Below are positions 31,396 to 54,216 of a stretch of DNA of 59,549 nucleotides, one piece after another (position 1 is the first letter of the stretch; every line of letters starts with the position of its first letter). The stretch is taken from the NCBI RefSeq assembly GCF_902764455.1, contig NZ_CACWVY010000008.1:5494-65042 (forward strand), written 5' to 3'. Both the position numbers and the translations under genes were made by a program. The stretch comes from an uncultured Methanobrevibacter sp. GTDB lineage: Archaea; Methanobacteriota; Methanobacteria; Methanobacteriales; Methanobacteriaceae. The notes under the pieces are model-generated. The model was given only the letters and a program-made list of their open reading frames with translations, ran no database searches and was not told where the DNA came from.

Positions 31396-31695
31396 TTATT
31401 CTTCTTCTAAAAATACAGAATTAATCAGATTGTCCCTGTATGCGGTTTCATCTTTTAAGCTTTCTATATGATGTATTACATTGAGTTTTAAATCTTCCAG
31501 CTTTATTCTGGATTCCAAATCGTTAAAATCAACCTGAAAACGTAAAATATACCTGATTTCCATATCATAGTCGTATATTACCCAGGTGGGGCCGTTGATG
31601 TCGAGAAGCTGGATAGACCACTCAGACATTATATCTGTGATTTGACGTGTGGTTTCATCAACGTCAAAATCAGCAAAGAAGAGCAATTCTTTCAT
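31396..31695 (-). CDS. Hypothetical protein (99 aa) at the end of the SseB cluster
   Basis: A small acidic protein, MKELLFFADFDVDETTRQI, with no recognised domain. Its start overlaps the end of the upstream gene by four bases, so the two are translationally coupled, which suggests they act together. It is the last gene of the leftward operon from about 36044. No membrane segment. Confidence 0.65.
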   Translation of the reverse strand: MKELLFFADFDVDETTRQITDIMSEWSIQLLDINGPTWVIYDYDMEIRYILRFQVDFNDLESRIKLEDLKLNVIHHIESLKDETAYRDNLINSVFLEEE

Positions 31696-31982
31696 TGGTA
31701 AAAATCCTCAGGTTCTGTTTTAATCTGGTTCATTTCGATTTCTTCCGGATTGAATATGCCGAACATTGTTATTTCACATTTTTTAATTGACATTGGCTGG
31801 GACATGTTTTCATTTTCAAGTGAAATGAGACATATGCTTATCCATTCCTCATCTTCTGAAATGTATTTGCATGGCTCAAAGAGCTGAAAACGTGTCATTA
31901 ATGTTATAAGCAGGTCATCTATTTTGGTATCTTCGTTTTTGCACTGGCGATTAAGCTCTAAAATTCTTTCTTTAATATTCAT
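31692..31982 (-). CDS. Hypothetical protein (96 aa)
   Basis: A small acidic protein with ITLMTRFQLFEPCKYISEDE in the middle. No known domain is recognised. The gene is four bases after the metallopeptidase-like zinc-ribbon gene and overlaps the next gene by four bases, so it belongs to the same operon. No signal peptide or membrane helix. Confidence 0.65.
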   Translation of the reverse strand: MNIKERILELNRQCKNEDTKIDDLLITLMTRFQLFEPCKYISEDEEWISICLISLENENMSQPMSIKKCEITMFGIFNPEEIEMNQIKTEPEDFYQ

Positions 31983-31986
31983 CTAA

Positions 31987-33120
31987 TTACTCCAAATTAA
32001 TATTATATTGTTCTAATGTATCGATATTATCCATTGCAACTGCAAATCCGTCATAGAGAATGAATCTGACGGCTCTTGTTAAACCTTCCTTATTTAATAA
32101 TGTACAGTTTTCAAGTGCAAGATTTTTATAATCCGGCTGGTCCATAATGTCTGATTTGAACTGATTTTTAATGTCTTTAAGTAAATCGGCATTAATGAAT
32201 GATTCAAGAATATGCTTTATGGCAATTGCAAAGGTATTTCCGATTGTCTTTAGCATTTCTATTTCCTCATCTGCAATATCTATTGAATTTTGAATGTTTA
32301 AAAATGATGAGTAGTCCTGAAATCCGTATAATGTAAATCTTCCCTCAACTGTGTGGGCAGCATATTCATCCACCAGCTGGTTTAATGGTGAATATGAAAG
32401 AATGAATGTTACAATTGACTCGATTTGACTTGTCTTGTCGCAGTCAAGAATCTGGCATAATGTATGTGAAAGGATTTCCTTGTTTAGAAAATGTGTAAGC
32501 TCATGAATCAGAGTTGTAATCTGCAGTACGTCCAGCTGCCTGTCGTCAATATAGATTTTATTGAACTCATAGTATCCGAGTTCAGGTCCGTATGATTTGT
32601 ATTCCACATTAACAAATGACTTGCAAAAAAGCATTATCTTTTCAAGAACTGACAAATCATCAAGCAGTATGTCATTTTTCTTTATTGTGCGGTCAAGCCT
32701 TCTAATGGCAGATCGTCTGATTTTTTCTGAAATGGCATTAATGTCAAAGCTGTTTATGTTGATTTTTTCGAGGTTTTCAAAGGTTAAAATTTCATTAAAA
32801 TCATCATAGTGATTATTACCCTTAATGCGAAATTTCGGATTTAACTGAATCTGATTTATATCGACATCCTTAATATCCTTAAGTGCAACTCCGCAGTCAA
32901 GACAGAAATTTTCCTCACTCGGATATTTCTTATGGCATTTCGGACAGAATTTTGAAGGAATGAAAGTATCCTCAATGGCTTTACTATAAAAACAAGGTTC
33001 GTAATCAGCCATCATATTCATTTTAAGCTCATTAGCATCATTATTATATAAGACAGAGTTAATCAGAACTTCCTTGTCAATATCAGCATATGTAAATTTT
33101 GATAGAGATTTATAATCCAC
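31987..33120 (-). CDS. Zinc-ribbon protein with HExxH metallopeptidase-like motif
   Basis: 377 residues, begins at GTG (33120) after GGGTGAT. A central zinc ribbon (CPKCHKKYPSEENFCLDCG, about residues 58-76) is followed by an all-helical region with ITTLIHELTHFLNKEIL (about 204-220), an HExxH motif as in gluzincin peptidases. A third metal ligand is likely among the acidic residues in LNQLVDEYAAHTVEGR, which resembles the ExxxAxxxE region downstream of HExxH in other such proteins. No membrane helix, so it is predicted to be cytoplasmic. It is adjacent without gap to the zinc-ribbon membrane protein gene. Substrate unknown. Confidence 0.7.
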   Translation of the reverse strand: MDYKSLSKFTYADIDKEVLINSVLYNNDANELKMNMMADYEPCFYSKAIEDTFIPSKFCPKCHKKYPSEENFCLDCGVALKDIKDVDINQIQLNPKFRIKGNNHYDDFNEILTFENLEKININSFDINAISEKIRRSAIRRLDRTIKKNDILLDDLSVLEKIMLFCKSFVNVEYKSYGPELGYYEFNKIYIDDRQLDVLQITTLIHELTHFLNKEILSHTLCQILDCDKTSQIESIVTFILSYSPLNQLVDEYAAHTVEGRFTLYGFQDYSSFLNIQNSIDIADEEIEMLKTIGNTFAIAIKHILESFINADLLKDIKNQFKSDIMDQPDYKNLALENCTLLNKEGLTRAVRFILYDGFAVAMDNIDTLEQYNINLE

Positions 33121-33456
33121 TTAAATCACCCTCACTAATAAAAAACTAACAATCCAAACAACTGCAGCTAATGCGATAATTACGATTCCGTATGTCTTTG
33201 CTTTTTCGCTGTCTTTACGGGTAATGAGATATATTCCGAAAATCGCACCAATAAGAGGACTGATAAATGCAAATATCACTCCGAGAACTGTTGCAAGAGT
33301 ATGGCTTTTTTCGAATACCTGCGGAGTATAGGTAGTATGTACGGCATTATCTCCTTCGGGAGGAATATTTCTGCCTGACAAATCAAATCCGCAGTTTTTG
33401 CAGAATTTTGCCTCATCAACCAGTTTTTCACCGTAGCTTGGACAGTATTTAGACAT
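33121..33456 (-). CDS. Zinc-ribbon two-helix membrane protein
   Basis: About 111 residues, starting MSKYCPSYGEKL after a perfect GGGAGGT. The ribbon has lost one of four cysteines: CPSYG instead of CPSCG, while the second knuckle CKNCG is intact. A linker leads to two membrane helices (TLATVLGVIFAFISPLIGAI and YGIVIIALAAVVWIVSFLL). The frame could extend to 33513, but that part overlaps the upstream gene. Likely a small cytoplasm-facing membrane protein; function unknown. Confidence 0.75.
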   Translation of the reverse strand: MSKYCPSYGEKLVDEAKFCKNCGFDLSGRNIPPEGDNAVHTTYTPQVFEKSHTLATVLGVIFAFISPLIGAIFGIYLITRKDSEKAKTYGIVIIALAAVVWIVSFLLVRVI

Positions 33457-33457
33457 T

Positions 33458-34093
33458 TTATACCTCCCTGAATACCCTTTCAAGCAGGTGTTCTTCTGAT
33501 TTGTAAAAGTCAAGCTGGAGTTCTGTTTGAAGATATCCCGGTGCGTTTAGAAGTTCCATCATTGACTTCCATGGCCCGTAAACTTTTTCGCCGCCTTCAG
33601 CTATGCATCGCTCCAGTGCAATCGGCAAAGTTCCCATTACTGAGTCTGGAAGTATAACTGTAGAGCTATCAAAACTTTGATTATTATTGTACAATTCATT
33701 TGCTACAAGTTCCGCCAAATAATAATCAACAGGATCACTTGAACTATCTAAATTATCGATGATTGTTTCATTATTTTTAATGGATATCTTGAAGAGGTTT
33801 TCACCTTCCATAAAGTAGACCTCACCCACATCAAGAGGCTGTGCAAAATGGGGGTTGTCGGTTTCAAAGTTTAAAACAGGTTCCTCTAAAAGTTCTTCAG
33901 AGCCGTCATCATATGAAAGGGTTGAAAAGTCAAAAGGATTTTCCGGATAAGGCTTCATCATTTGTTTAACCTCATTGGAAACAGTTTCCTTCAGGTCTTC
34001 CTCTCCGGCAATCTTTTTTAAAAGTCGGATTATTTCCCGGTTCTGCTCTTCAATGTTCTTGTTGATTTTTATTAGTTCAGACAATTCGGACAT
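33458..34093 (-). CDS. Coiled-coil protein of the SseB cluster, unknown function
   Basis: About 211 residues. The N terminus (LSELIKINKNIEEQNREI) is a coiled coil with heptad spacing of Leu and Ile. The rest is acidic and contains no domain I recognise; a late segment reads LPIALERCIAEGGEKVYGPW. An AAAGGT site lies six bases before the ATG at 34093, which is preferred to the in-frame ATG at 34114. It lies 26 bases after the SseB-like gene in the same operon. Confidence 0.65.
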   Translation of the reverse strand: MSELSELIKINKNIEEQNREIIRLLKKIAGEEDLKETVSNEVKQMMKPYPENPFDFSTLSYDDGSEELLEEPVLNFETDNPHFAQPLDVGEVYFMEGENLFKISIKNNETIIDNLDSSSDPVDYYLAELVANELYNNNQSFDSSTVILPDSVMGTLPIALERCIAEGGEKVYGPWKSMMELLNAPGYLQTELQLDFYKSEEHLLERVFREV

Positions 34094-34119
34094 GATTATA
34101 CCTTTTGTTTTCATTAATA

Positions 34120-35028
34120 TTATAAGTTGATGTCAAATAAGTAATAGATTGACTCGCACAGACCAGGGTCATTTGCAAATTTTTCAAAACCCAGGGAGTA
34201 TCTCAAAAGCATCTGCCTTGATATGAGGACATTGTCGCTTTCGGGGTTTAAAATTATTCCGTCCATGTCTTCTGTAAGGACAAAATTCACAAGTGTTGCA
34301 AGATTTACAAGCTGCGAGTATTTGAATTTGGATGTATTTACACTGGCCATTTTATCTGCGGATGAAAATATGGTTGCATACTTTCCCCCTACCCTGTCTG
34401 TGTGCATGCTTGCAAGAGGGCCAGTCTCTTTCTGGTCGATTATTCCGTCTTTCATATACTCTGTGAGGTCATAATCAGCAAGCATCAGTGTAAGTATATG
34501 TGAATTTGAAAGCTTTTCAAAAAGCATCTCATATTCTCCAATGTTTAGAGGATCTTCAATAAAACTTTCAAGCTCCTTATTGTCAATGTTTTTAACAATT
34601 TCCTTAAGTTCTTGCGGAGTATATGGGTTGTTTGAATAGAAGCTAGTTTTTGGAATATTTTTGATGCTCAGGATAAATTCCTTTTTAAACAGATACTTTT
34701 CAGAAGCAGGATTAAGAATATAGCCTTCTATTTTTGAAGTTTTCAGTATATTCTGGTAAAGCTCGAAGGAGTTGTTTAAAACTTCAATGTCTTCGTCCCT
34801 GAAGAATTTTCTGAATTCGTCCAGGTCTGTAAAAAGAGGAGTTATCTTTCCGTATTCATCATCATATATGATGAAGTTAAGAGTATTGTTCTCTCTTTTT
34901 GCCGGAATATATAAATTTGAATACCTGAATTCATTAATCAGTCTTGTAAGCAAGTCTTCGGTGATTTCGTTATTGTTTGAATAGATATCTTCAATAACCA
35001 ATCTTAAATGTTCGTGTGTTATCATCAT
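34120..35028 (-). CDS. Tandem SseB-like domain protein
   Basis: 302 residues with two SseB N-terminal-type units. The first is clear: YIPAKRENNTLNFIIYDDEY, then ITPLFTDLDEFRKFF and SKIEGYILNPASEKYLFKK. The second is weaker, with ATIFSSADKM and TEDMDGIILNPESDNVLISR. The LFT and GIILNP pieces are the hallmark of the family, which is found with secretion systems and serine-sensitivity genes in bacteria but has no firm biochemical role. It is a paralogue of the next gene (35103). No signal peptide or membrane segment. Confidence 0.72.
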   Translation of the reverse strand: MMITHEHLRLVIEDIYSNNNEITEDLLTRLINEFRYSNLYIPAKRENNTLNFIIYDDEYGKITPLFTDLDEFRKFFRDEDIEVLNNSFELYQNILKTSKIEGYILNPASEKYLFKKEFILSIKNIPKTSFYSNNPYTPQELKEIVKNIDNKELESFIEDPLNIGEYEMLFEKLSNSHILTLMLADYDLTEYMKDGIIDQKETGPLASMHTDRVGGKYATIFSSADKMASVNTSKFKYSQLVNLATLVNFVLTEDMDGIILNPESDNVLISRQMLLRYSLGFEKFANDPGLCESIYYLFDINL

Positions 35029-35102
35029 ATTAAATATATGTCTTTTTGCACTTAAAAAATTATATTCAAAAAAATAAGATTGAGGAATGGATTAACCATT
35101 AC

Positions 35103-36044
35103 CTAAATTAAAAATGCATAGTCAAGGGAGTCCCTGAATCTGCCGTCTTCTGCTATGAGTTCAATTCCCCTTGCCTGTGAGAGAATCTCTTCTCTTAAAA
35201 TATAGTATTCAAGGGAATTCGGATTTATGACAATACCGTCCATGTCATTTCTCAGGACAAATTCAAACAGGTCAGTGAGAACTGTAATCTGTCCGTAAAA
35301 GTTGGCTTCACTGTCTTTTAGGGTTTCGGCCATTTCCTCTTTGGAGGTAAAAATCATTGCCATATGAATCGGATCATCATCAATGACAAAGAGACTGAAT
35401 CCGTCGACATCTGATGATTCGATTATGCCGTCTTGTGCAAACTCATCAAGAGGTTCATCGCTTATGACTGCATTTAAAAGGTGTGAATTTGAAAGCTCCA
35501 CCATAAGAGGTTCCAAATTATCATGGTCAGCGTCATTTTTCAAAAATGAAACAAACTCCTCATTTCCAGGATTTTCGAAAATCTCTTTGAGTTCCTCTTT
35601 GGAGCATGCATCCTCATCATCATCTGAAAATGATACAGGACTGCCGGTTGGAATTTCAGCAAGGAAATCCTTATCAAAAGGTATGCACATTCCTTCCAGG
35701 TCAATGATAATTCCGTCAACACCGCTTTCTTTTACAATTTCCAGATAAAGTTCAAAGTTATTGTCCAGAGGTTCAAACTCACTGTCATCACCCTGATGCT
35801 TTTCAAACTCCTCAACGTTTGTAAAGAGAGGAAGGTATGTTGAATCATCATCTTCGAAAACTACATTTTCGAATACTAATTCATCTTCTTTTTCAACAGC
35901 AGGTATCAGCAAATTGGAAACTCGCAATTCTCCAATGAGATTAAGTAAAAGTTCCATAGGAATTTCTTCATTATCATCCAAATAGAGTTTTGCATGTTCC
36001 AATGTGTATGTTAAATGTTTATTTTTTATAAGCATTACGTCCAT
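35103..36044 (-). CDS. Tandem SseB-like domain protein
   Basis: 313 residues, strongly acidic. The same two-unit plan as its neighbour: LLIPAVEKEDELVFENVVF, YLPLFTNVEEFEKH, DGIIIDLEGMCIPFDKDF in the first half; MIFTSKEEMAET and DMDGIVINPNSLEYYI in the second. GAAGGT precedes the ATG at 36044. It is the first gene of the operon running to 31396, preceded by a 26-base palindrome (36071-36096) at the promoter. A 74-base gap separates it from the second SseB-like gene. Confidence 0.72.
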   Translation of the reverse strand: MDVMLIKNKHLTYTLEHAKLYLDDNEEIPMELLLNLIGELRVSNLLIPAVEKEDELVFENVVFEDDDSTYLPLFTNVEEFEKHQGDDSEFEPLDNNFELYLEIVKESGVDGIIIDLEGMCIPFDKDFLAEIPTGSPVSFSDDDEDACSKEELKEIFENPGNEEFVSFLKNDADHDNLEPLMVELSNSHLLNAVISDEPLDEFAQDGIIESSDVDGFSLFVIDDDPIHMAMIFTSKEEMAETLKDSEANFYGQITVLTDLFEFVLRNDMDGIVINPNSLEYYILREEILSQARGIELIAEDGRFRDSLDYAFLI

Positions 36045-36070
36045 GGAAAACCTTCTTTACATTTTGTTGT

Positions 36071-36096
36071 TATAATATATGTTCTCATATATTATA
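36071..36096 (-). promoter_or_regulatory. Perfect palindrome over the SseB operon promoter
   Basis: TATAATATATG (36071-36081) and CATATATTATA (36086-36096) are perfect 11-base arms around TTCT. It contains the TATA-like sequence expected 25-30 bases upstream of the transcription start for the gene at 36044. A dimeric repressor could cover the TATA box; the divergent winged-helix gene at 36211 is a candidate. Confidence 0.5.
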
Positions 36097-36210
36097 AAAG
36101 TTAATGGTTATAGTTTGTTGATAAGCAGTATTAAACCGTTAATACACAAAAAATAGCAAATTAATATTCAATAAATAAAAATGTCTTATAGTTAAAATAA
36201 AGAATTATCT

Positions 36211-36498
36211 ATGTCCCATGAAGATAATGAAAAAGAAATATGGTCAATGATAGGATTTGTGAAAGTTTCACCCACACGATACAAAACATTAAAGGCATTG
36301 GAAAAGGAATTTCTCATACCTACCGAAATCGCACAAAATTCAGGCCTAAGAATAACACAGGTGTCAAATGCACTTCATGATTTAAAGGAGAAAAATCTCG
36401 TATTCTGTGAAAATGAAGAAGCAAAAAGAGGCCGAATATACAAAAATACTGAAATGGGCATGAAAGTTCTTCAAAAAATTGATGACAACACTTATTAA
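36211..36498 (+). CDS. Small winged-helix DNA-binding protein
   Basis: 95 residues: SPTRYKTLKALEKEFLIPTE, then LRITQVSNALHDLKEKNLVF and a wing ending RGRIYKNTEMG. This is an ArsR/MarR-like winged helix without metal ligands. A TATA-like box about 24 bases before the ATG suggests a leaderless mRNA. The 3' end overlaps the convergent HIRAN gene by four bases. It is a paralogue of the gene at 37330 and may regulate the divergent SseB operon. Confidence 0.85.
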   Translation: MSHEDNEKEIWSMIGFVKVSPTRYKTLKALEKEFLIPTEIAQNSGLRITQVSNALHDLKEKNLVFCENEEAKRGRIYKNTEMGMKVLQKIDDNTY

Positions 36499-37322
36499 AC
36501 AATTTTGGCAATTATATATTCATAAAGATATAAAAACATCACCACAGCTTTTTTAGGAGCACTCTTTCTGATTTCACTGGCGCTTTTAACACCTTCAATC
36601 ATCGTATGAGGACTGTTTGCAACATAACCTATCGTCATTCCATTTGCCTCGACTCTTATTGCATCGCTGTCATGTTCGTTGTCATCTTCAGGGATTAAAT
36701 CAACTTCAAGACCTTCTCTAATCAAATCAAAGCTCTGGTAAAACTGAGTTCCGGTAATGCAAATGAGAGTGTCTTCTGTTGTTTTGATATATTGTGTGTG
36801 TTCGTCAAGCACTGCAATCTCATCCTGGAGATTTTCCGCTATCATATAACATTTTTTGGATTCAAGCTTGTCTCCAAGACAGTCCAGTATGCTTCCCTTG
36901 AGATACCAGAACTTTTCCATATCCAAATCCTGTGAGATATATGCAGTGCTTTCGATTGCTTCTGTTATGATTTCAAGTGCCTTATTTTTATCGTTGAGTG
37001 AATTTGCCCAGGCATAAAGCATGTTGATTTTATTTAAAAGAACATCCTCGCTGAATTCCATTTCAAGTGATTTGTCAAATGCTTCCAGTGACTGTCTGTA
37101 TTTGTAGAGCTTTTGTAAAATAAGTCCTTTGGTGTTGTAGTAGTCCGGTTTTGAATTGTCCTTTTCAATGGCAAGACTGATTAGTGTAAGGGCTTCCTTG
37201 TCTCTTCTTTTTTGGTGTAATTTTAAAGCTTCTTGGCTGAATATGTCTGCACGTGTGAGTTTTTGTGTTTTTTGGGGTTTTGTCCATCCATCAAGAGTTT
37301 CTCTGTCTTTCTGGACTGTCAT
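36495..37322 (-). CDS. TPR-HIRAN domain protein
   Basis: 275 residues. Residues about 25-165 are helical TPR-like repeats (ALTLISLAIEKDNSKPDYYN, YRQSLEAFDKSLEMEFSED). The last 90 residues match a HIRAN domain: LICITGTQFYQSFDLIREGL, DLIPEDDNEHDSDAIRVEAN and MTIGYVANSP. HIRAN domains in Rad5/HLTF bind DNA 3' ends or stalled forks; standalone prokaryotic ones are less well known. GTGAT precedes the ATG, 7 bases after the winged-helix gene. The combination suggests a DNA-binding adaptor with a protein-interaction part. Confidence 0.78.
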   Translation of the reverse strand: MTVQKDRETLDGWTKPQKTQKLTRADIFSQEALKLHQKRRDKEALTLISLAIEKDNSKPDYYNTKGLILQKLYKYRQSLEAFDKSLEMEFSEDVLLNKINMLYAWANSLNDKNKALEIITEAIESTAYISQDLDMEKFWYLKGSILDCLGDKLESKKCYMIAENLQDEIAVLDEHTQYIKTTEDTLICITGTQFYQSFDLIREGLEVDLIPEDDNEHDSDAIRVEANGMTIGYVANSPHTMIEGVKSASEIRKSAPKKAVVMFLYLYEYIIAKIV

Positions 37323-37329
37323 TTAATCA

Positions 37330-37596
37330 CTACTCTTTGTCTATATAATCGGCTATTTCTCTTCCGACATCTGTCAGGCGGTAAATCCTGTTTTTTCTGT
37401 TTTGTTCATTAATGCATTCTGCAACTTCACATTCCTTGAGCTGCTTTAGGACATGGGAAATGTGATTTACTCTGATTCCTGCATCCCTTGCGATTACAGT
37501 CGGAGTTTTATCCTCATCCTTAAGAGTCTTTACGACCCTGGCCCGGTATGATGATATGTTTACATATGCATATTTTTTCAATGTTTCATCATCCAT
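37330..37596 (-). CDS. Small winged-helix DNA-binding protein
   Basis: 88 residues: YRARVVKTLKDEDKTPTVIA, then IRVNHISHVLKQLKECEVAE and a wing ending RKNRIYRLTDVGREI. It is a paralogue of the protein at 36211. GTGAT lies before the ATG. It is cotranscribed with the downstream TPR-HIRAN gene and probably regulates this local cluster. Confidence 0.85.
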   Translation of the reverse strand: MDDETLKKYAYVNISSYRARVVKTLKDEDKTPTVIARDAGIRVNHISHVLKQLKECEVAECINEQNRKNRIYRLTDVGREIADYIDKE

Positions 37597-37643
37597 GATA
37601 TCACATGTTAATATCTTGTTTATAATGTTAAAATATTTTTCTG

Positions 37644-38729
37644 TTATTTGTAGTCATCTACGGATTTTATGAGAATGTCCATGTCATCAATGAGACTGTC
37701 GACATCATCTTCTTTAGCATCGTCTATGCTTAAAACCAGTTCATTGGCCAAAGCATCCATCTTGGAGATGATTTTCTTTAATATATCAACTTTTGCATCA
37801 AGCTCCTGTCTGATTCTTGGAGTGTCATCACTTGCAAGCTTAATAATGTTCATTGCAGACTCGTACTGACTTTTAAAGAGTTTACTTGCATTGTCAACAG
37901 ATGATATGAATCTTGTATATGTAAGCTGAGGAGGTGCAAAACGCTTTTCAATAAGCTCTCTTGCAGCTTTCTCCTTTGAATCGAATTTGACATTCAACTC
38001 TTCAATTTCCCTTTTGTAAACCAGTAAATCCTCATCGATTCCATCCTTTTGAGACACCGGTATTTCAGCCTCTTTCGGCTTTTCAATTTCAGCCTGCTTT
38101 TTGACTTGCTTAGGCTTTTTAGGTTCTTTGATTTTTTTGACACCTGGATCCTTATTGGTGAGCTTGTGGATTATAAAACCTGCTATAAATATAGGAAGGG
38201 TAAAAACTGCAGCTACAATTACACCTACAAAGAGATTTTTGGATACTGCAGTTCCAAGAATGGTAAAACCGACAAATAGAACAATGCTTATTATTTTTGT
38301 TTTTGAAAGTCTGAAATAACCTGTCTTTTTGTCCTGCCAGTAAAAAAGGAGATTGCCCATATCACTTAAAAGTCCGTAATCACTGCTTTCAAGCTGATTT
38401 TGGGAAGGATGTGAGATTACTTTGTGTAAGACATAACTTACAAGAAATGCCAGTGCAGTAAATATTAAAGTAAGGCCCAGCACTCCAAGAGGATATGGTG
38501 AAGTAATGCATGTCAGTATCAATACAACAAAAACAAAGATTGAAAATACCTTTGTTTTTGAAATCATGTAGTAATTGTTATAGTTCCAGTAGAACAGTTT
38601 GTGTGTTAGGGAGTCGTCAGGTACTGTAAGTTCACCTGAAAGCCTGAATGATTGTGATTTGCAGTTAGGACAGAATTTCGCATTTCCGTTGACCCTTTTT
38701 CCGCAGTTATTGCATATCTTATATGTCAT
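37644..38729 (-). CDS. Zinc-ribbon membrane protein with XpaC-like C terminus
   Basis: About 361 residues. N-terminal zinc ribbon (ICNNCGKRVNGNAKFCPNCK), two pairs of membrane helices (about residues 55-105 and 140-185), a Lys/Pro/Glu-rich linker, and a helical C-terminal domain (FISSVDNASKLFKSQYESAM, then QELDAKVDILKKIISKMDAL). The helices plus coiled-coil end resemble XpaC proteins, which accompany TelA-type toxic anion resistance genes. The start at 38729 is chosen because GGTGG is then six bases upstream; it overlaps the AAA+ gene by 11 bases, so translation is coupled. Function unknown. Confidence 0.65.
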   Translation of the reverse strand: MTYKICNNCGKRVNGNAKFCPNCKSQSFRLSGELTVPDDSLTHKLFYWNYNNYYMISKTKVFSIFVFVVLILTCITSPYPLGVLGLTLIFTALAFLVSYVLHKVISHPSQNQLESSDYGLLSDMGNLLFYWQDKKTGYFRLSKTKIISIVLFVGFTILGTAVSKNLFVGVIVAAVFTLPIFIAGFIIHKLTNKDPGVKKIKEPKKPKQVKKQAEIEKPKEAEIPVSQKDGIDEDLLVYKREIEELNVKFDSKEKAARELIEKRFAPPQLTYTRFISSVDNASKLFKSQYESAMNIIKLASDDTPRIRQELDAKVDILKKIISKMDALANELVLSIDDAKEDDVDSLIDDMDILIKSVDDYK

Positions 38730-40188
38730 TGTCATCCACCAAAAAGTCTTCATAAGTTAAAGTGTTCAGTTCTTCATCTGTAATGTCATCTTTTAAGGCA
38801 AGTCTGTTTGCCTGTGCTGTTAAAACCTCTTCAAATAGATTTCTCACAGCCCTTGCATTTGCAAAGTTTTCGGATTTGTTTTCATACATCTTCTCGCAGT
38901 ACTGTTTTATATACTCGTCTGCCGCTTCATCTAGTGTCAGATTTGCGTCTGATGCCATAAGCTTGAAAATATTGTAGAGCTCCTCGCCGTTGTAGTCCTC
39001 GAAGTATATGAACTTGTTGAATCTGGACTCAAGACCAGGGTTTGAGTGAAGAAAACTGTCCATAAGGGCAGGATAACCTGCAACAATAACAATCAAATTG
39101 TCACGCTTATCCTCCATTGCCTTTAAGAGCGTATCTATTGCTTCCTTTCCGTAGTCGTTTTCACTGCTCTGGTTGAGTGCATATGCCTCATCTATAAACA
39201 GGATTCCTCCAAGAGCGGACTGGATAACATCCTGGGTTTTTATTGCGGTCTGACCTACGTATCCGCCAACAAGACCTGACCTGTCGGTTTCAACGAGATG
39301 GCCTTTTGAGAGAAGTCCGATTTCATGATATATTTTTGAAAGAAGCCTTGCAACAGTTGTCTTTCCGGTTCCGGGATTGCCTGAAAAAACCAGATGAAGA
39401 CTCATCGGGGTCTGCTTTATCCCACGTTCCTCTCTAATCTTTCTGATTCTTACAAGATTTATAAGGGAGTTTACATCCTTTTTAACCTTTTCAAGACCTA
39501 TAAGTTTATTTAAATCTTCAATAAGCTCGTCAAGTGATTTTGACTCTTCGACTTCCTCTTCTTTTTGCTTGGAAATTTCAGGCCGGGTTTCAGGCAGATC
39601 TGTTGATATTTCATTTTCCTTCATGTAGTTTTGAAGCCTTTTTATGTATGATACATACATCTCCAGTACATCTTCATCGAGATTATTGTCGACAGTTATG
39701 AAAAACTTTCCGAGGAATTTATAGCAGTCAAAAAGCTGTGCGCATGAATTGATATTGTTCATGTCATATTTCAATCCGAACTGGTCGATTTCATGAAGCG
39801 CAACAAATGAAAGAGGAATTTCCTCATCGAGCTTCAGTTCGCTGAGGGAGAGTATATCATCAGCAGTGTAGCTGGTATTTAAAAGTGAATTTATAAATTC
39901 AACTTCATTATCGGTTATTTTGCCGTCTCCAAGACCAAGATAACTGAACCACTTGAATAAATCATCAAGAACAATGGTTTTAAGGTTCATGCAGTCGAAC
40001 TGCTCCAGTGCCGGTGAAAAGTCTGAAAATACTCCAACAGTATTCAAAAGAAATGTGAAACTGTTTAGATAATCATTAAGATAATCCATCTGAATTTTTT
40101 CAACCTCGCTGGCGCAGGAGGGACATGTCACCTGTGAGCTGTCAAGGATTTTACCGCAATTGTTACAAATAGTCCACTCTAACATCAT
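38719..40188 (-). CDS. Zinc-ribbon CbbX-type AAA+ ATPase
   Basis: 489 residues in three parts: a zinc ribbon (ICNNCGKILDSSQVTCPSCA) nearly the same as in the downstream gene; a helical domain with an EF-hand or TerB-like stretch (LGLGDGKITDNEVEF, about residues 88-102); and a AAA+ domain of the CbbX/SpoVK/EccA type from about 230. Walker A is FSGNPGTGKTTVARLL, Walker B is GILFIDEAYAL, sensor 1 is LIVIVAGYPALMD, and arginine finger candidates lie in PGLESRFNKFIYF. Such ATPases remodel protein complexes. The shared zinc ribbon suggests it works with the adjacent XpaC-like membrane protein. The start may be 40188 or the next ATG. Confidence 0.82.
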   Translation of the reverse strand: MMLEWTICNNCGKILDSSQVTCPSCASEVEKIQMDYLNDYLNSFTFLLNTVGVFSDFSPALEQFDCMNLKTIVLDDLFKWFSYLGLGDGKITDNEVEFINSLLNTSYTADDILSLSELKLDEEIPLSFVALHEIDQFGLKYDMNNINSCAQLFDCYKFLGKFFITVDNNLDEDVLEMYVSYIKRLQNYMKENEISTDLPETRPEISKQKEEEVEESKSLDELIEDLNKLIGLEKVKKDVNSLINLVRIRKIREERGIKQTPMSLHLVFSGNPGTGKTTVARLLSKIYHEIGLLSKGHLVETDRSGLVGGYVGQTAIKTQDVIQSALGGILFIDEAYALNQSSENDYGKEAIDTLLKAMEDKRDNLIVIVAGYPALMDSFLHSNPGLESRFNKFIYFEDYNGEELYNIFKLMASDANLTLDEAADEYIKQYCEKMYENKSENFANARAVRNLFEEVLTAQANRLALKDDITDEELNTLTYEDFLVDDNDI

Positions 40189-41769: not shown

Positions 41770-44358
41770 TTACCTCTTCTTTTGATAGTTCAGATTAATT
41801 CTTTCTGCCTGCGCAACCGGTTTATTTGCCATAGACTGTTTTCTTGCACCATTTGAAAAGAACTCGCTTTCTAATCCATACATTTCATCAGGATTGAAGA
41901 CACCCATTTTTGTCAGAAGCTTGAATCTGTTTTTAAACCATGAAAGCTGCCTGTCATCACAGTAGATTCCTGATTTGAAAAAGTCTTTCAGTATCCTCTC
42001 ATCATCTTCAAACTGGCCGTCCTTTCTGTATATAAATGACAGCTTTTTGTATGGATAGTAGTCATTTACAAAAAGTTCATGACTCAAAAGTCTCAGGCAG
42101 AACTCACGTGCATTTCCATACTGCTTTTTGCTGATGTATCTTTCGGCCTCTATAATCAAATCCCTTTTGATGTCAATTTTTTCATCATATGAGAGATTCC
42201 CATCAATCTCCATAACTGAATCAATATATAGTGGATCAAGTGTTGATTTTGATGGTTTTTTTCTTGAATCCTTTTTCATCTTGATTATTTTGACTGAAAG
42301 AGGAGGGCTTGTTGTGAGATTGACCTTTCCGATCTTTCTCATCTGGAGAAATTCGTTTTCAAGCTCGCCCATATTGGAATCATAGTCAAAATATCCCATA
42401 TTGTCCAGAAGTTTAAGCCTTTTTTTAAAGTCGTTCAGGGTGTTTTTGGTTGCATAGATTCCTGATTTTAAAAACTTAACGAAAGTTTCGGTTTCCTGCT
42501 CGTACATGAATGCCCTTTCATAGGATTCGGCAAGCTTTTGATATGCATAATAGTCATGTTCAAAGAGTTTATTTGAAAGCAGTTTCCGATAAAATACAAT
42601 CGCCTTTTGTGTTTCATCATTTTTTAAAAGCTCTTCACCCTTACGTATATATTCATATTTCAAATCCACCATCTTTTTAAAGTCAAGACCGGTTAACATA
42701 TCTACATTAACATTATCTTCTCTTGGAGTGAACCGGTCTATTGCATCCCTGAATGTGTCCGGAATAAAGTGGTTGTCCTGACTGTCCTCGGAGATAAAAC
42801 CTGTCAGACGATTGTCTATAAAATAGGTTGTGCAGTAATCCTCTTCAAATCTCATTCCCCTTCCGTGTGTCTGAACCAGGGAAAGGGATGTCTTGTAGCT
42901 GTACCATTTGGAGTCAAAGGCATTTCTTGTGTAGGTCTGCTTGTCTCCCAAATCAGGATAGGGAATCTTGTAAATTATTTGAAATCTGCATTCCTCTCCC
43001 GGAAGATCCACACCTTCACCAACTGATGGTGACACCAGAACAAGAGGTTTTCTGGATTTTTTAAACTCATCAATGACATCCGCTCTGTTTTGAGCATCAT
43101 GATAGATAAATCTGTCGCTTGAAATCTCATCAATTATAAAGTCCCTGCATCTTGAGCTTACTGTGTGGATTATACCCTTGTCGTTTTTATGCTTTTCAAG
43201 AATTTCCTTTAATGTATCAATTGTTCTAGGAGCGGATTCGGCGATATGCTTTCTTGACATGTTAAACTCGGAATATGTTTTAATCGGATTTCTTTTAATG
43301 TCAAAGGGGCTTTTTCGCCTTATTGCATATATCTCATCGGGTGAAATTCCAAGCCAGTGTGCAAAAAGCCTGTAATCAAGAATGGTTGCACTCATAAAAA
43401 GACACACGTCAGCATATTTGAACAGTGTATTTTTGGCATAATTATCGATTTTAAGAGGCTTGAACTGAGCTATTTCAAAATCTCTGTCGTAGTCAAATAT
43501 CCACATCTTCGGGTCAAATTCCAAGTGTGTTAAAAAACGCTTGCAGTCGCCAATCTTGTTTTTAATGAAGATTTTCTTTTCTGAAAGTTCCGGCCTGTCA
43601 ATATCCCTGATTTTGGAGAGTTCGTTTTCATATCCCTCTTTAATTTTAACTACAAAACTGATCCAGTCTGTATAGTCACTGGTGGCGAGCTCGTCAATAC
43701 GCTGCTTTGAAAGATTTATCTTCAGATATTCCTTCAAATCCTTTCTTTCAAATTCCAACGTCAGCTGGCTCATTATCATGTTTTCGATGTTGTGGGCCTC
43801 ATCACAAATCATGATGTCTCTTGGAAGAAAGTCCTCAACATAATTAAGCTCCAAAAACATGTATGGATAGTTTGCTATTGTAACATCAGCCATCATTGCC
43901 TGAAACTTCTGATAGTAATAGTTGCAGGTGTTTTTCTTTGTTATTTCACATGTTGAGTGGTTTTTAAGCGAATATCTGCAGGCATAGCCCTCAACGACAC
44001 ACCTTCCAAAATCACAGGTCTGTTTGACCCCATCCTCAAGATACCTTTTGCACTTGAAATTACCTCTTCCCTTAACCAGTTTAAAGCCCAAATTTTTGAA
44101 ATCCCCCAGGTACTGGTTCTGGAGCTGCTTTGTAATTGTGAGAATATATGATGAGTCAAACATCCCAGCTAAAGTCGCTGCAATGGCAGATTTTCCAGTA
44201 CCTGTTCCTGCCTCAAGGACAATGTATCTGTAACCTCTGTCTATAGCCCGCTTGATTTCTGATATTGTTTCAAGCTGAAATTGTCTTGCCTTGCTGAATG
44301 GAAAATGTTTTGCTGCCTGAGGGTTGATTTTTGAATAATTGCTGTACTGCCATATCAT
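41770..44358 (-). CDS. XPD/DinG-like superfamily 2 helicase with duplicated C-terminal domain
   Basis: About 862 residues. Helicase motifs: Walker A EAGTGTGKSAIA, DEAH as ICDEAHNIENM, and motif VI QTHGRGMRFEE. Between motifs I and II a cluster of Cys (KCKRYL, CDFGRC, CRYSL, CEITKK, CNYYY) matches the Fe-S domain of Rad3/XPD/DinG helicases, which unwind DNA 5' to 3'. After the helicase (about residue 560) come two copies of a TPR-like module; the second begins ERYISKKQYGNAREFCLRLL and both contain FFKSGIY or FLKSGIY. The frame runs to 44376; the ATG at 44358 (MIWQYSNYSK) fits the helicase start better. No neighbour is coupled. Confidence 0.85.
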   Translation of the reverse strand: MIWQYSNYSKINPQAAKHFPFSKARQFQLETISEIKRAIDRGYRYIVLEAGTGTGKSAIAATLAGMFDSSYILTITKQLQNQYLGDFKNLGFKLVKGRGNFKCKRYLEDGVKQTCDFGRCVVEGYACRYSLKNHSTCEITKKNTCNYYYQKFQAMMADVTIANYPYMFLELNYVEDFLPRDIMICDEAHNIENMIMSQLTLEFERKDLKEYLKINLSKQRIDELATSDYTDWISFVVKIKEGYENELSKIRDIDRPELSEKKIFIKNKIGDCKRFLTHLEFDPKMWIFDYDRDFEIAQFKPLKIDNYAKNTLFKYADVCLFMSATILDYRLFAHWLGISPDEIYAIRRKSPFDIKRNPIKTYSEFNMSRKHIAESAPRTIDTLKEILEKHKNDKGIIHTVSSRCRDFIIDEISSDRFIYHDAQNRADVIDEFKKSRKPLVLVSPSVGEGVDLPGEECRFQIIYKIPYPDLGDKQTYTRNAFDSKWYSYKTSLSLVQTHGRGMRFEEDYCTTYFIDNRLTGFISEDSQDNHFIPDTFRDAIDRFTPREDNVNVDMLTGLDFKKMVDLKYEYIRKGEELLKNDETQKAIVFYRKLLSNKLFEHDYYAYQKLAESYERAFMYEQETETFVKFLKSGIYATKNTLNDFKKRLKLLDNMGYFDYDSNMGELENEFLQMRKIGKVNLTTSPPLSVKIIKMKKDSRKKPSKSTLDPLYIDSVMEIDGNLSYDEKIDIKRDLIIEAERYISKKQYGNAREFCLRLLSHELFVNDYYPYKKLSFIYRKDGQFEDDERILKDFFKSGIYCDDRQLSWFKNRFKLLTKMGVFNPDEMYGLESEFFSNGARKQSMANKPVAQAERINLNYQKKR

Positions 44359-44489
44359 AATACTTCTAAACACCATATATTTTTTAAAAACACTATTTAC
44401 TTGATTATTTAATTACACTTTATTTAAAGTTCATGACAGAGCATTTGATAAGTAATATCATTAATTATATAATTTCATTTAGCATCTGA

Positions 44490-44714: not shown

Positions 44715-47700
44715 TTAAATATTATTTTCATTTAAATACAATTCACTTGCAAATTCTTTTGGCTTACAGAAGTATCTGTATGAACATCTCACACATTCAT
44801 CTTGCCTTTCCGGTTTTTTTACAAAAACTCCTTTATCGATTTGACATGCCACTTCATTTAACATGTTCAATTCATCACTCATTACATTTTCATCAATTTC
44901 AACTTCATAAGGATGATCATTTAAAACAAAATGAATAATCGCTTTTTTAATTTTATATTTATTGTATTCAGGCAGATCCCATAATGCAGAAGCATAAATA
45001 TAGGACTGTTTTTTATAACCTTCAATGTGGTCTTCATCAAATTCTGCATATTTATAATCAAGAATAACAATTTCATTTTCTGAGGTTTTATAGATTAAAT
45101 CAATTGCCCCGTTTAAAAGGTATTCTCCTCTGAATATTTCAAAGTCAAATTCAGCTTCAAGGACTTCACGGTTTACGGAATAAGTCTCATAATAATTAAT
45201 GACATTTGTTTTAAATTCCTCAAATTCATCAGGATTTTCGTCAATGTCGAACATAGATTTATAGGTATCATATGTGATTTGTGAGAGCTCGTCTCTATTT
45301 AGTTTTATGCCTTCAATGAGTTTCAGGTTGCATTTTTCCATTATTTCATGAAATACTGTTCCTCTGTTTGCTGCTTTTGCACCGGAACGTCTGAAACCTA
45401 AATTATAACCCAAATCATATTTGAATGGGCATGAAATGTATTTTGTGTATTTTGAATAGTTCAGCACAACAGGTCCACTATCACTTTCTGCGTAATGTTC
45501 CATGATTTTTACATTGCTTAAATCTTCAAGATTGAATGGAGTGGTGTAATCTCTAATTCTTTCGATTTGTTCAGGCACTTTCTTGAGTGTAGAGAGTATC
45601 AAAAGGTCGGCGGCTCTTGTCATTGCAACATAAAGAACCCTGTCCTCTTCTTCAATATTCAGCTGATTTTCCTCTTCAATTGTGATAAATTCATGTTTTA
45701 AATTGCCATTATTGTCTTTTTTAAGAATTGTTTTATATTTTAAGCATTCATTTGGTGTGTAATACGTATCATTTGGGAAAATGAAATCTTTTTCACGATT
45801 AGGATCTTTAGAAATCATTGGAAACTTGTCCTTTTCAAGAGACGTGATGATTGTTACCGGAAACTCAAGGCCCTTGGCTGCATGAATTGTCATGAGCTGA
45901 ACGCCTTTTGTTTCGCTTTGATATGAATCGTAATTGGATATTGAGCTATTTAAAAAGAACAATACACCTCTAAAATCAGTTTCTGATATGAATGATTCAT
46001 AATTTGAAATTGTTTGGGTCAGTTTTGCAATGTTGGCGATTTCTGCATAATCAAGCTCATAGTCAAAAATATTACTCAATGCAACCAGCCGGTAGAATAC
46101 ATCCAGTATTGTTGGAGGCTCTTCTGCTTCAATTTCGGTTTTGATTTCACCCAATTTTTCAAAAAACTGCCTATCTTTTGGATTTTGGATTTTATCCAAA
46201 TCAATTTCAGGCATTTTGATGTTTTTAAAGATTTCACAGATTCTGTCCTGATTTTCTCTTTTTTTAACTCTGTGTACTTTATCAACGGAATATTTATTCT
46301 CTTTACCTGCCAATTCATTTTCAATTCTGGTAACTTCCTCGTAATATGAATCCTGCAGGTCACAAAGATAGGATTTGGTTGAATTGTCAAGTGATATAAA
46401 TGGGGTGTCGAAGTATAAACCACAAAATGCTTTAAGGTTTAATTCATCTAGTTCATCATTGGATAGAACATAACCAACATTGGTATTTCTGGATACATAC
46501 CACAGCATGGTCAGGACTGTTTTAACCTCTTCTTTTGAAGACAAATCACTCTGACCCCTAATTGAATAATCAATATTAGAATCACTGTTGAATTTTTCAA
46601 TTAAAGCGGCAATGGTTTTATCAGTGTGCTTTCTGTATAATACTGCAACATCAGAGTAATCCTTAATCAGATTGTTTAGTTTCAAGTATTTTATAATTTC
46701 ATAAACATTTTCAGCCTCATCATCACTATTTTTATTTTCAAGTAAAAAATTAGGATTATTATATCCCTTGCCGTTACTTACCATATGTTTTTGAGAAGTT
46801 TCCTTTCTTTGAGGAGCAATGAAAGCCTCGGTCAATTCAACAATACTGTCAGTTGATCTGAAATTGACATCCAGGCTTAAAACATCCGGTGAGTCAAGTC
46901 TGATAAGCTCATCGAAAAAGTCATTGAATGAACTTCTAAAAGCATAGATATGCTGGTCAACATCACCAACAGCCGTAAAGTAATCACAGTTTGCTCTTAA
47001 AGTCTCAAAAATCCTAAACTGCAGAGGATCAGTGTCCTGAAACTCATCAACAAAGACTGTAGTGTATTTAGTGATTGGGTCTTTTTTAAGCTCTTCCAAT
47101 GCCTTCAGCTGTAAAGTGTCATAATCAACATAATTATACTCATCAAGAAGTTTCAAATACTTTGGATAGGCCTTTGCAATTTGTAAGTATCTTGCATTAT
47201 ACCATGATTTGGAAAAGAGTCTTGACTCATCAAATTCATCAGGATTTTTCTTTTTTTCCTTTTTTAGAGGCTCATCATAATCATCAATGCGCTTTTTGGA
47301 AAAATAATCTAAGGATTTAATAAAATCAACGTATTCTTTAGTAATTACTCTTGAATCACTGATTTTTTTAGTTAATTCATTAGTATCAACGTTAAAACAT
47401 GTATATTCTCCGAATTTATTTAATACTCCTGGAAACTGATAATCCAAAACAGTGTTTTCGTTTATAAAACCAAGTTCATTTTTAAATTTTTGAATGAATA
47501 ATGTCTTTTTTTCGGAAGTATCATCATCAAGTAAATTCAGAGACATGTTTTTTGTCTTTAGATATTCAAGACAGAATGAATGGATTGTGGAAATCTGCAT
47601 CTTTAAAACTGTTGAATTAGAAAGTTCCTGCCTTAATTTAAATTTTAAATTATCAGCCGCTTTGGTTGTAAAGGTAATTACAAGAAACGATTCTGGATCA

Positions 47701-47831
47701 ACACCCTTTTTAATCAGCTCTTTAATCCTCTCAACAAGGATAGTAGTTTTACCTGAACCGGGACCCGCTTCAATTAAAAGAGTTCCTTTTCCATATTCAA
47801 TTACTTTCTTTTGATTTCCTACAAATTCCAT
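44715..47831 (-). CDS. UvrD-type helicase fused to PD-(D/E)XK nuclease with Fe-S cysteines
   Basis: 1038 residues. Superfamily 1A helicase: Walker A IEAGPGSGKTTILVERIKEL, motif II VFVDEFQDTDPLQFRIFETL, motif VI LYVAMTRAADLLI. The C-terminal 230 residues are a RecB-like nuclease: YLLNGAIDLIYKT and IVILDYKYAEF give the D...D-x-K site. A Cys at the front of the nuclease (SCPFKYDL) and three at the end (CVRCSYRYFC) are placed like the Fe-S cluster cysteines of AddB/AdnA nucleases. The ATG at 47831 with GGAGTGA is preferred over the GTG at 47840. It likely processes DNA ends in repair or defence as a single polypeptide. Confidence 0.9.
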   Translation of the reverse strand: MEFVGNQKKVIEYGKGTLLIEAGPGSGKTTILVERIKELIKKGVDPESFLVITFTTKAADNLKFKLRQELSNSTVLKMQISTIHSFCLEYLKTKNMSLNLLDDDTSEKKTLFIQKFKNELGFINENTVLDYQFPGVLNKFGEYTCFNVDTNELTKKISDSRVITKEYVDFIKSLDYFSKKRIDDYDEPLKKEKKKNPDEFDESRLFSKSWYNARYLQIAKAYPKYLKLLDEYNYVDYDTLQLKALEELKKDPITKYTTVFVDEFQDTDPLQFRIFETLRANCDYFTAVGDVDQHIYAFRSSFNDFFDELIRLDSPDVLSLDVNFRSTDSIVELTEAFIAPQRKETSQKHMVSNGKGYNNPNFLLENKNSDDEAENVYEIIKYLKLNNLIKDYSDVAVLYRKHTDKTIAALIEKFNSDSNIDYSIRGQSDLSSKEEVKTVLTMLWYVSRNTNVGYVLSNDELDELNLKAFCGLYFDTPFISLDNSTKSYLCDLQDSYYEEVTRIENELAGKENKYSVDKVHRVKKRENQDRICEIFKNIKMPEIDLDKIQNPKDRQFFEKLGEIKTEIEAEEPPTILDVFYRLVALSNIFDYELDYAEIANIAKLTQTISNYESFISETDFRGVLFFLNSSISNYDSYQSETKGVQLMTIHAAKGLEFPVTIITSLEKDKFPMISKDPNREKDFIFPNDTYYTPNECLKYKTILKKDNNGNLKHEFITIEEENQLNIEEEDRVLYVAMTRAADLLILSTLKKVPEQIERIRDYTTPFNLEDLSNVKIMEHYAESDSGPVVLNYSKYTKYISCPFKYDLGYNLGFRRSGAKAANRGTVFHEIMEKCNLKLIEGIKLNRDELSQITYDTYKSMFDIDENPDEFEEFKTNVINYYETYSVNREVLEAEFDFEIFRGEYLLNGAIDLIYKTSENEIVILDYKYAEFDEDHIEGYKKQSYIYASALWDLPEYNKYKIKKAIIHFVLNDHPYEVEIDENVMSDELNMLNEVACQIDKGVFVKKPERQDECVRCSYRYFCKPKEFASELYLNENNI

Positions 47832-48152
47832 ATTATTCACTCCTTAGTAATAATATTGTGTTTATAAATATATAATTTATTTGAATTTAATTTCAAAATT
47901 AATAGATTTTTTAATAAATTTTTGCTTTAATCAATTAGTATTACGTTTTAATTCTTGTCCTGGAGAAATTTGTGTTCCAATATGGATTCCTCTTGAAATT
48001 GTCCATCCTAACTATTACAAGCAGTTAAAAGAGTATCATCAGTATTTATTTTTTACTTGAGAAGCAAATCAGTGAATTCTAATAAAAATAGGGAAATGTA
48101 TTAATTATAAAATATATAGATAGATATAAAATGAATATAAAAGGTGTTAAAA

Positions 48153-52281: not shown

Positions 52282-53403
52282 ATGACTATGAAAACTGACG
52301 CCGACCTCATCACCTATTTTGGTACGACACGAAACCTGAAAAAAAGCACTATTGATTCCTACACTATCTACATAAGAGAATACAGCAGGTTCAATGACAA
52401 AACAATGGTTGAACTTCTTGAAGAAGCTGAAAATGAAGAGGAAGAAGGAATCCGTTGGAAACACAGGACTTTAAGAAAAAGACTGTTGAGCTTTAGAGCA
52501 CATCTCTATGAAAAACACGCATACATCACTGCCAAAACCAGATTCAGTAAGTTACTCGCATTTTACAGACATTTCGAAATAGAGATCCATCCATTGCCTC
52601 CAATCAGTAACAAAAACATAGATGAAGTAGCTATTAGCTTTAAAGACTTGCCTGACAAAGACATTATTAAAAAAGCTTTGAAAATTTCCACACCACTTAT
52701 GAGATCAATAATTCTTTTTATGAGCTCATCAGGATGTGCAAGAATGGAAACACTAAACCTGACCATAGGAGATTTTGTAAAAGCAACAGAAGACTATCAC
52801 AGAAGCAATGACATCTATGAAGTATTGAGAAGGTTGAAAAACAATCAGACCGTTGTACCACTGTTCTACCTAAGGAGGCAAAAAACAAACAAATATTATT
52901 ATACATGCTGCAGCCCTGAAGCAACAACAGAAATAATCAATTATTTGTTAAGTGAACAAAGGTATCTTCAACCTGACTCCCCATTGTTTAAAATCAATGA
53001 CCAGGAGTTCTTGAAAAGATTCAGATCCATCAACAATCAGTTAAGCCTTGGCAAAGTCGGACACAACATCCGTTTCCGTAGCCATATGCTAAGAAAGTTC
53101 CATGCAAGCCAACTTCGTGAAAGCGGGTTGGACATGGACACCATCGATGCATTGCAGGGCAGGGCAAAAACTGAAGTAAGGCAAAGCTATTTCTTTGACA
53201 ACCCTGAAAACATAAGGGAATCTTACATTGGCCATATGGATTGTTTAACAATCAATTTGGATGTCAACTCCATTGATATCAAAAGTCCTGAATACTTCAA
53301 ACTGGAAAATGAAAACAGGTCCTATCAGAATCAGATGGATGAGCTTAATGGAAAGCTTAATTTCATCATGCAGCATATTGATGAAGACATTGGACTTTCC
53401 TAA
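52282..53403 (+). CDS. Tyrosine recombinase (integrase)
   Basis: 373 residues. The N-terminal 110 residues form a SAM-like core-binding domain (LKKSTIDSYTIYIREYS). Catalytic residues can be placed: R154 in GCARMETLNL, a Lys in the hairpin near 201-204 (RRQKTNKYYY), H268 and R271 in SHMLRKFHASQL, an Arg where the third His/Trp usually stands (LQGRAKTEV) and the nucleophile Y303 in RQSYFF. The final 60 residues are an extra tail with NQMDELNGKLNFIMQHIDED, perhaps a coiled coil. AAGAGGT precedes the ATG. It lies between direct repeats and next to a CRISPR array. Confidence 0.92.
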   Translation: MTMKTDADLITYFGTTRNLKKSTIDSYTIYIREYSRFNDKTMVELLEEAENEEEEGIRWKHRTLRKRLLSFRAHLYEKHAYITAKTRFSKLLAFYRHFEIEIHPLPPISNKNIDEVAISFKDLPDKDIIKKALKISTPLMRSIILFMSSSGCARMETLNLTIGDFVKATEDYHRSNDIYEVLRRLKNNQTVVPLFYLRRQKTNKYYYTCCSPEATTEIINYLLSEQRYLQPDSPLFKINDQEFLKRFRSINNQLSLGKVGHNIRFRSHMLRKFHASQLRESGLDMDTIDALQGRAKTEVRQSYFFDNPENIRESYIGHMDCLTINLDVNSIDIKSPEYFKLENENRSYQNQMDELNGKLNFIMQHIDEDIGLS

Positions 53404-54086: not shown

Positions 54087-54216
54087 AATAATCATATCAT
54101 ATTTTTTATTATAATATTTATTATATTTTATATATAAAATAAGTAATAAAATTAATGTGGGAGGATAGTACAGAAGAATTTAAAATAAAAAAGAGAAAAA
54201 ATAAAGGAGGAATCCC

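Follow-up and report, generated by a model that had tools for sequence, protein, structure and literature searches.

The DNA analysed here (the window) comprises 59.5 kb within contig 8 of a 2.75-Mb genome of an uncultured Methanobrevibacter sp. (G000), and it carries at positions 31396-40188 a cluster of twelve genes for which an earlier note, made from the letters alone, had proposed a membrane-linked protein-remodelling or stress complex. All twelve reading frames named in that note were present when the frames of the window were checked, and all of them except one lie on the reverse strand. The cluster includes an ATPase of 489 amino acids (aa) at 38719-40188, which consists of a zinc ribbon, a helical N-domain and an AAA+ domain of the SpoVK-CbbX-EccA clade, and a protein that we continue to call XpaC-like after its earlier name (37644-38735; start at 38753 or 38735), which has a zinc ribbon, hydrophobic segments and a conserved C-terminal helical region. 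Two optional genes follow, encoding a winged-helix protein of 88 aa (wH88, 37330-37596) and a TPR-HIRAN protein of 275 aa (36495-37322; Pfam HIRAN 1.2e-6, TPR 1.3e-6). The only forward-strand gene, wH95 (36211-36498), encodes another winged-helix protein and is divergent from the operon of the SseB genes. That operon contains the optional and fast-evolving tandem SseB protein SseB313 (35103-36044; Pfam SseB 3.9e-18), the core tandem SseB protein SseB302 (34120-35028; Pfam SseB 1.9e-12), CC218 (33458-34114) with an N-terminal coiled coil and an apparently catalytically dead BrxL-type Lon-fold domain (~91-218), the zinc-ribbon transmembrane protein ZnTM of ~111 aa (33121-33456), a zinc-ribbon protein of 377 aa with a predicted zincin metalloprotease domain weakly like M78 (IrrE/ImmA) peptidases (HExxH, 31987-33120), and the small proteins p96 (31692-31982), of no known family and with 19 relatives, and p99 (31396-31695), which is very conserved (77% mean column identity).

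The spacing of these genes agrees with the coupled starts described in the earlier note. From the ATPase through TPR-HIRAN the gaps are -17 (ATPase/XpaC-like), 47 and 7 bp (wH88/TPR-HIRAN), and from SseB313 to p99 they are 74, 5 (SseB302/CC218), 1, 0, 4 and -4 bp (p96/p99 overlap). On the opposite strand, wH95 runs towards TPR-HIRAN, overlapping it by 4 bp, and is separated from the divergently oriented SseB313 by 166 bp. Because of these spacings and the position of wH95, the cluster looks like two operons with a divergent winged-helix gene between them, and wH95 is a probable regulator, as it is sited where the regulator of the second operon would be. No operator common to the wH95-SseB313 spacers was found beyond AT-rich words. 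In addition, the interval 31396-40188 is too short for the whole system, since the DinG/XPD-type helicase encoded at 41770-44376 on the reverse strand belongs to it as well, as described below.

The gene order was compared in a family-wide search of 139 genomes, in which the ATPase and the zincin were used as queries, regions of up to 20 kb were taken and their genes were mapped. The twelve-gene order is kept across ~40 Methanobrevibacter species, almost all of which are represented by genomes from rumen or gut. In most species the genes are linked, whereas scattered genes would have spoken against the proposed cluster. When we counted neighbours within 11 kb of the ATPase in the 26 loci with a full ATPase, where some absences fall at contig ends, the most frequent partners were XpaC-like, SseB302 and ZnTM (21 loci each), CC218 (20), HExxH (17) and p99 (16), followed by wH95 and p96 (14 each), SseB313 (13), DinG (12), TPR-HIRAN (11) and wH88 (6). 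Where both genes of a pair are present, they are immediately adjacent in 24/25 cases for ATPase-XpaC-like, 23/27 for SseB302-CC218, 25/26 for CC218-ZnTM, 20/20 for ZnTM-HExxH and 14/14 for p96-p99, so that the gene order is far beyond chance. Over 67 genomes of the genus, 39 have both the ATPase and CC218, 2 the ATPase only, 5 CC218 only and 21 neither (Fisher p 1e-10, uncorrected for shared ancestry). Pairwise distances among the ATPase, XpaC-like, DinG, SseB302, CC218 and HExxH correlate at 0.5-0.9, compared with 0-0.45 between these core genes and the flanking CDF transporter and GPx genes; as the slowly evolving flanking genes give noisier distances, these correlations serve as supporting evidence only. 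The ATPase was matched in 39 of the 78 good genomes of the family, and the cluster was not found in genera other than Methanobrevibacter in the searches made. A scan of ~85,000 species genomes with SseB302 gave 28 loci, all titled Methanobrevibacter; where a title names the host, it is a ruminant. At the level of sequence, a conserved system can therefore be regarded as established.

The ATPase matches Pfam AAA and AAA_lid_6, and its closest structures in the PDB are CbbX (E 4e-61) and EccA1 (E 2e-48), with ~267 aa aligned. The NCBIfam scores for SpoVK (308 bits, cut-off 423), CbbX (256, cut-off 459) and EccA (250, cut-off 467) are all below the equivalog cut-offs, and these profile and structure matches place the protein in the SpoVK-CbbX-EccA clade. 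Members of this clade are described as dedicated chaperones with variable N-domains, acting in type VII (T7) secretion and envelope synthesis, and are marked by GY in sensor-1, a conserved Asn before the Arg finger and a sensor-2 Arg (PMC10659427). The ATPase has an NPG...SR motif, and the GY of sensor-1, a YVG pore loop and the sensor-2 Arg are invariant in its relatives; at the level of single residues G371, Y372, N383, R389, R446 and R449 are invariant in 23 sequences. The first Arg of the CbbX 'NPGFRSR' and EccA1 'NEGLRSR' motifs, four positions past the Asn, is Glu in 23/23 ATPases. The four Cys of the zinc ribbon are invariant in the alignment of relatives, and the N-domain as a whole was modelled well, with a predicted local distance difference test (pLDDT) score of 88. 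A TerB-like N-domain was not supported by the profile matches listed, among which TerB is absent, nor by the predicted fold, for which no PDB match was found beyond the zinc ribbon (best E 0.5). In species that lack the cluster (L112-L117, L082-L093), a rubrerythrin-like gene adjoins another form of the ATPase, which is longer (~550-600 aa) and ~45% identical overall; the form at L112-L117 was considered as a variant cluster and dropped, as its neighbours look like general stress or housekeeping genes.

CC218 (218 aa) had been described as a coiled-coil protein, and this label holds for its N-terminus and misses a larger domain detected by profile, structure prediction and fold comparison. In the AlphaFold2 model, an N-terminal helix (3-35) is followed by a low-confidence linker and by a domain at 91-218 with a pLDDT of ~90. 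A PDB profile search with CC218 matched the C-domain of BrxL, and a Foldseek search with the model returned BrxL chains first (E 2e-5) and Lon proteolytic domains next. The CC218 profile also matches ~680-aa frames in other Methanobacteriaceae (E 1e-7 to 1e-10); two of these were checked, and PADLOC as well as their bacteriophage exclusion (BREX) context identifies them as BrxL, with the match spanning the Lon domain. As the PDB profile, the predicted fold and the archaeal BrxL homology agree, CC218 can be assigned as a coiled coil joined to a BrxL-type Lon-fold domain. No DNA-binding N-terminal region or central AAA+ domain is present in CC218, in which the coiled coil alone precedes the domain. 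In the CC218 family (22 sequences, positions placed by eye), the catalytic Lys position of Lon is occupied by Pro in 19, Ala in 2 and His in 1, and no conserved Ser occurs in the segment aligned with the Ser region of Lon. Unlike the active Lon (S16) protease, the domain thus lacks the Ser-Lys dyad and is judged from the alignment to be catalytically dead. In BrxL, the C-terminal Lon-like domain likewise has no dyad, and the contacts between rings are made through it (PMC10164562; also PMC12839542). Profile comparisons of CC218 with SseB and with p99 showed no relation, and the viral contigs searched held no full CC218 relative, the coiled-coil motif alone being found in two of them. In some species in which the cluster is absent, stand-alone CC218 relatives of ~214-251 aa have housekeeping-like genes as neighbours (L185-L188).

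The HExxH protein retains the features of a zincin. In 19 relatives the sequence HELTH...DEYAAH, placed where metal binding is expected, varies little or not at all, with H206, E207, H210, D251 and E252 invariant, which bears out the earlier description of a zinc-ribbon HExxH protein. With HExxH and the downstream Glu intact, the protein is a predicted metalloprotease. DUF6782 was matched in 16/19 members and M78 (PF06114) weakly in 12/19, with a best E of 2.9e-4 that is below the Pfam cut-off. Zincin paralogues are common in the genus, and one of them makes up the C-terminal portion of a protein of 697 aa (L066:8-2101) beside a type I specificity domain gene.

For the other members, Pfam agreed with most of the earlier domain names. 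SseB302 and SseB313 each carry two SseB matches in tandem (PF07179; 47.9 and 66.3 bits against a cut-off of 21), the TPR-HIRAN and AAA+ assignments were likewise matched, and sub-threshold matches were obtained for the zinc ribbons in four proteins, ZnTM among them, and for the winged helices of wH88 and wH95. SseB302 has a mean column identity of 73% and no relatives in viral contigs, and TPR-HIRAN paralogues occur nearby in several species. The XpaC identity of 37644-38735 was rejected, since Pfam gave a zinc ribbon only and XpaC was absent among the matches listed (the first 25 of 105 families) for the 17 aligned relatives at E-values of up to 10; the protein belongs to no known family. Of the parts that the earlier note had related to secretion or stress systems, the SseB-like and CbbX/EccA-type assignments were upheld and the XpaC and TerB ones gained no support; no apparatus for secretion was observed. 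The start of ZnTM is probably the ATG at 33456 and not the TTG at 33513, because its relatives begin with MSKFCP. One zinc-ribbon Cys of ZnTM is replaced by Tyr in the window copy (CPSYG) and is Cys in nearly all relatives. Finally, p99 is genus-wide, was found in 1/20 genera, and also occurs outside the cluster, next to uracil-DNA-glycosylase-like, dCTP-deaminase-like (both named by eye) or UspA genes; therefore, its presence alone was rejected as a marker of the system. Profile comparisons of p99 with p96 and with SseB showed no relation.

The DinG/XPD-type helicase (41770-44376; Pfam Helicase_C_2 and DEAD_2), which has an extended C-terminus, is a member of the system. The window copy lies apart, upstream of the cluster, and in many species the gene is inside the operon, in the order ATPase-XpaC-like-DinG-SseB302-CC218 (L072, L078, L096) or DinG-ATPase-XpaC-like (L065, L066, L068, L070). 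Its distances covary with those of the ATPase, SseB302 and CC218, and the genome holds three more distant DinG paralogues. Further upstream, also on the reverse strand, a UvrD helicase with a fused, Cas4-like PD-(D/E)XK nuclease domain (44715-47840; Pfam UvrD 1.5e-52, PDDEXK_1 1e-20) recurs in six or seven other loci and is not constant, so that it is a frequent neighbour of uncertain membership. The borders of the cluster differ in character: the upstream flank is variable and prone to defence genes, and the other side (u118, CDF, GPx and UspA-like genes) is stable. For example, a type I BREX locus (BrxL, PglZ, BrxC, BrxB, BrxA) abuts the XpaC-like/DinG/ATPase end in genome G067 (L182, G067:C19:17000-35058), and in G089 the upstream side holds a BREX remnant together with restriction-like genes. 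In these two genomes BREX was found as a neighbour only, and no BrxC, PglX or PglZ was found in the conserved cluster. When 80 upstream proteins were compared with PADLOC, UvrD- and Cas4-like matches were repeatedly obtained, and among the matches listed for 67 downstream proteins there was just one protein, with matches of the E1-E2 type. The GajB and Cas4 matches reflect generic UvrD and PD-(D/E)XK folds and not Gabija or CRISPR, and for the core itself PADLOC gave no system, the matches being generic AAA and helicase models. Elsewhere in the window, a Schlafen group 3 (SLFN-g3) helicase protein at 48947-50809 may be a defence gene, and an archaeal phage-type integrase (52282-53403) is followed by a frame (53649-54095) that resembles a phage portal fragment by eye and has no Pfam match; the two may be the remnant of an integrated element.

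Our best reading, to which we give a probability of about 0.42, is that the cluster encodes an AAA+ remodelling complex that is linked to the membrane, has a dead Lon domain as scaffold and a stress-type protease, and is coupled to DNA through the helicase. The membership of the ATPase in a dedicated-chaperone clade (PMC10659427), the intact zincin site, the dyad-less Lon domain, the conserved order, the co-occurrence of the ATPase with CC218 and the correlated distances of the core genes were counted in favour of it. In such a complex, a hexameric ATPase of the SpoVK-CbbX-EccA clade would thread or remodel a dedicated target, and the zinc-ribbon membrane proteins encoded next to it would hold the motor at the membrane. 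CC218, with its coiled coil and dead Lon domain, would serve as a ring scaffold or adaptor that replaces a proteolytic chamber, and the tandem SseB proteins would be adaptors or substrates. The zinc protease may be a switch that works by regulated cleavage, perhaps of the type of IrrE and ImmA, with the linked winged-helix proteins as possible substrates. A link to DNA that is damaged or foreign may be provided by DinG, plus TPR-HIRAN where present. The complex proposed in the earlier note is in keeping with the clade of the ATPase, the two membrane proteins, the zinc protease and the operon; the note had missed the BrxL-type pseudo-Lon and the helicase. Several points weigh against our reading. 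We infer a physical complex from gene linkage, and the set is split in two genomes, with HExxH and p96-p99 apart from ATPase-DinG-SseB302-CC218-ZnTM in G084 and with p96-p99 apart from the same genes in G097. CC218 lies ~70 kb away in G043, relatives of p99 and CC218 are also present outside the cluster, and HIRAN, SseB313 and wH88 are often absent. The Glu in place of Arg before SR means that catalysis by the ATPase may differ. Moreover, the survey of the clade reports no evidence of peptidase association (PMC10659427), and the operon linkage of the ATPase with Lon-fold and zincin proteins is therefore an exception at the level of genetic linkage. A rather unlikely possibility is a new kind of AAA+ machine of two subunits, with a SpoVK/CbbX-clade ring working in trans with a stand-alone dead BrxL-type Lon together with the zinc protease, SseB adaptors and DinG, which would serve this archaeal genus against stress or viruses; if true, it would show the workings of dead-Lon domains outside BREX.

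Since defence genes, BREX among them, lie in the variable flank, the main rival is a defence against viruses or plasmids, in which DinG and sometimes the UvrD-nuclease would process foreign DNA, the ATPase and dead Lon would form a two-subunit BrxL-like motor, and the zinc protease or the membrane proteins would be the effector. The homology of CC218 to the Lon domain of BrxL fits this rival, as do the complete-looking BREX set abutting the cluster in G067, the remnant in G089, the recurring UvrD-PD-(D/E)XK gene, the Schlafen-type helicase and integrase in the window and the patchy distribution of the ATPase. However, the core has no constant nuclease or toxin and is not matched by PADLOC systems, the defence genes lie on the variable side only, the CDF/GPx/UspA flank is stable, the cluster was seen in one genus only and no relative of SseB302 was found in viral contigs, and we consider defence rather unlikely as the role of the core. 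An envelope or secretion chaperone is distinctly improbable: clade membership, the roles of the clade (PMC10659427) and the two membrane proteins of the core would suit an EccA- or SpoVK-like ATPase acting on envelope enzymes or exported proteins, to activate or unload them, with the membrane proteins as its docking site, but the conserved set contains no secretion pore or envelope enzyme, and the helicase and HIRAN would be left unexplained. The split versions (L124/L125 and L126/L127), p99 beside other genes elsewhere and CC218 relatives that occur alone could also mean that independent small units share a chromosomal hot spot and do not form one system; given the near-invariant adjacency, the gaps of 0-7 bp and overlaps, and the co-occurrence and co-evolution of the core, we regard this as quite improbable.

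If the remodelling complex is taken as a working model, a conserved unassigned operon of rumen methanogens gains a testable molecular hypothesis. The cluster also provides a case of a SpoVK-CbbX-EccA-clade ATPase genetically tied to peptidase-fold partners, of which the published survey (PMC10659427) had none. It also brings a dead-Lon domain that is small and stands alone, so that the role of the BrxL C-terminal domain could be examined outside the BREX setting. Searches of the literature for this set of genes yielded no directly relevant work. Its parts can be compared with those of known systems. With SpoVK, CbbX and EccA, the ATPase shares the AAA domain, the GY of sensor-1, the pore loop, the sensor-2 Arg and the possession of a variable N-terminal domain (PMC10659427), but its N-domain is a zinc ribbon with an unmatched helical bundle, its scores are below the equivalog cut-offs, one Arg of NPGxRSR is Glu, and its operon includes Lon-fold and zincin proteins. 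The CC218 domain is like that of BrxL from type I BREX by profile, fold and direct homology, and both are without the Ser-Lys dyad (PMC10164562), whereas CC218 has no AAA+, OB or helix-turn-helix (HTH) region, brings its own coiled coil and stands alone. In common with the M78 peptidases IrrE and ImmA, the zincin has a weak profile match (12/19), HExxH with a downstream Glu and winged-helix genes nearby; in contrast to them, it is below the Pfam cut-off and has a zinc ribbon, and the linked regulators are of the winged-helix type. With the Ter/TelA-XpaC systems the resemblance goes no further than a general combination of zinc ribbons, membrane proteins and an ATPase; neither TerB nor XpaC was among the matches listed, and the ATPase N-domain has no TerB fold. 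Thus, the parts are of known kinds, and their combination, with a stand-alone BrxL-type dead Lon beside a SpoVK-CbbX-EccA ATPase, appears to be new within the searches made.

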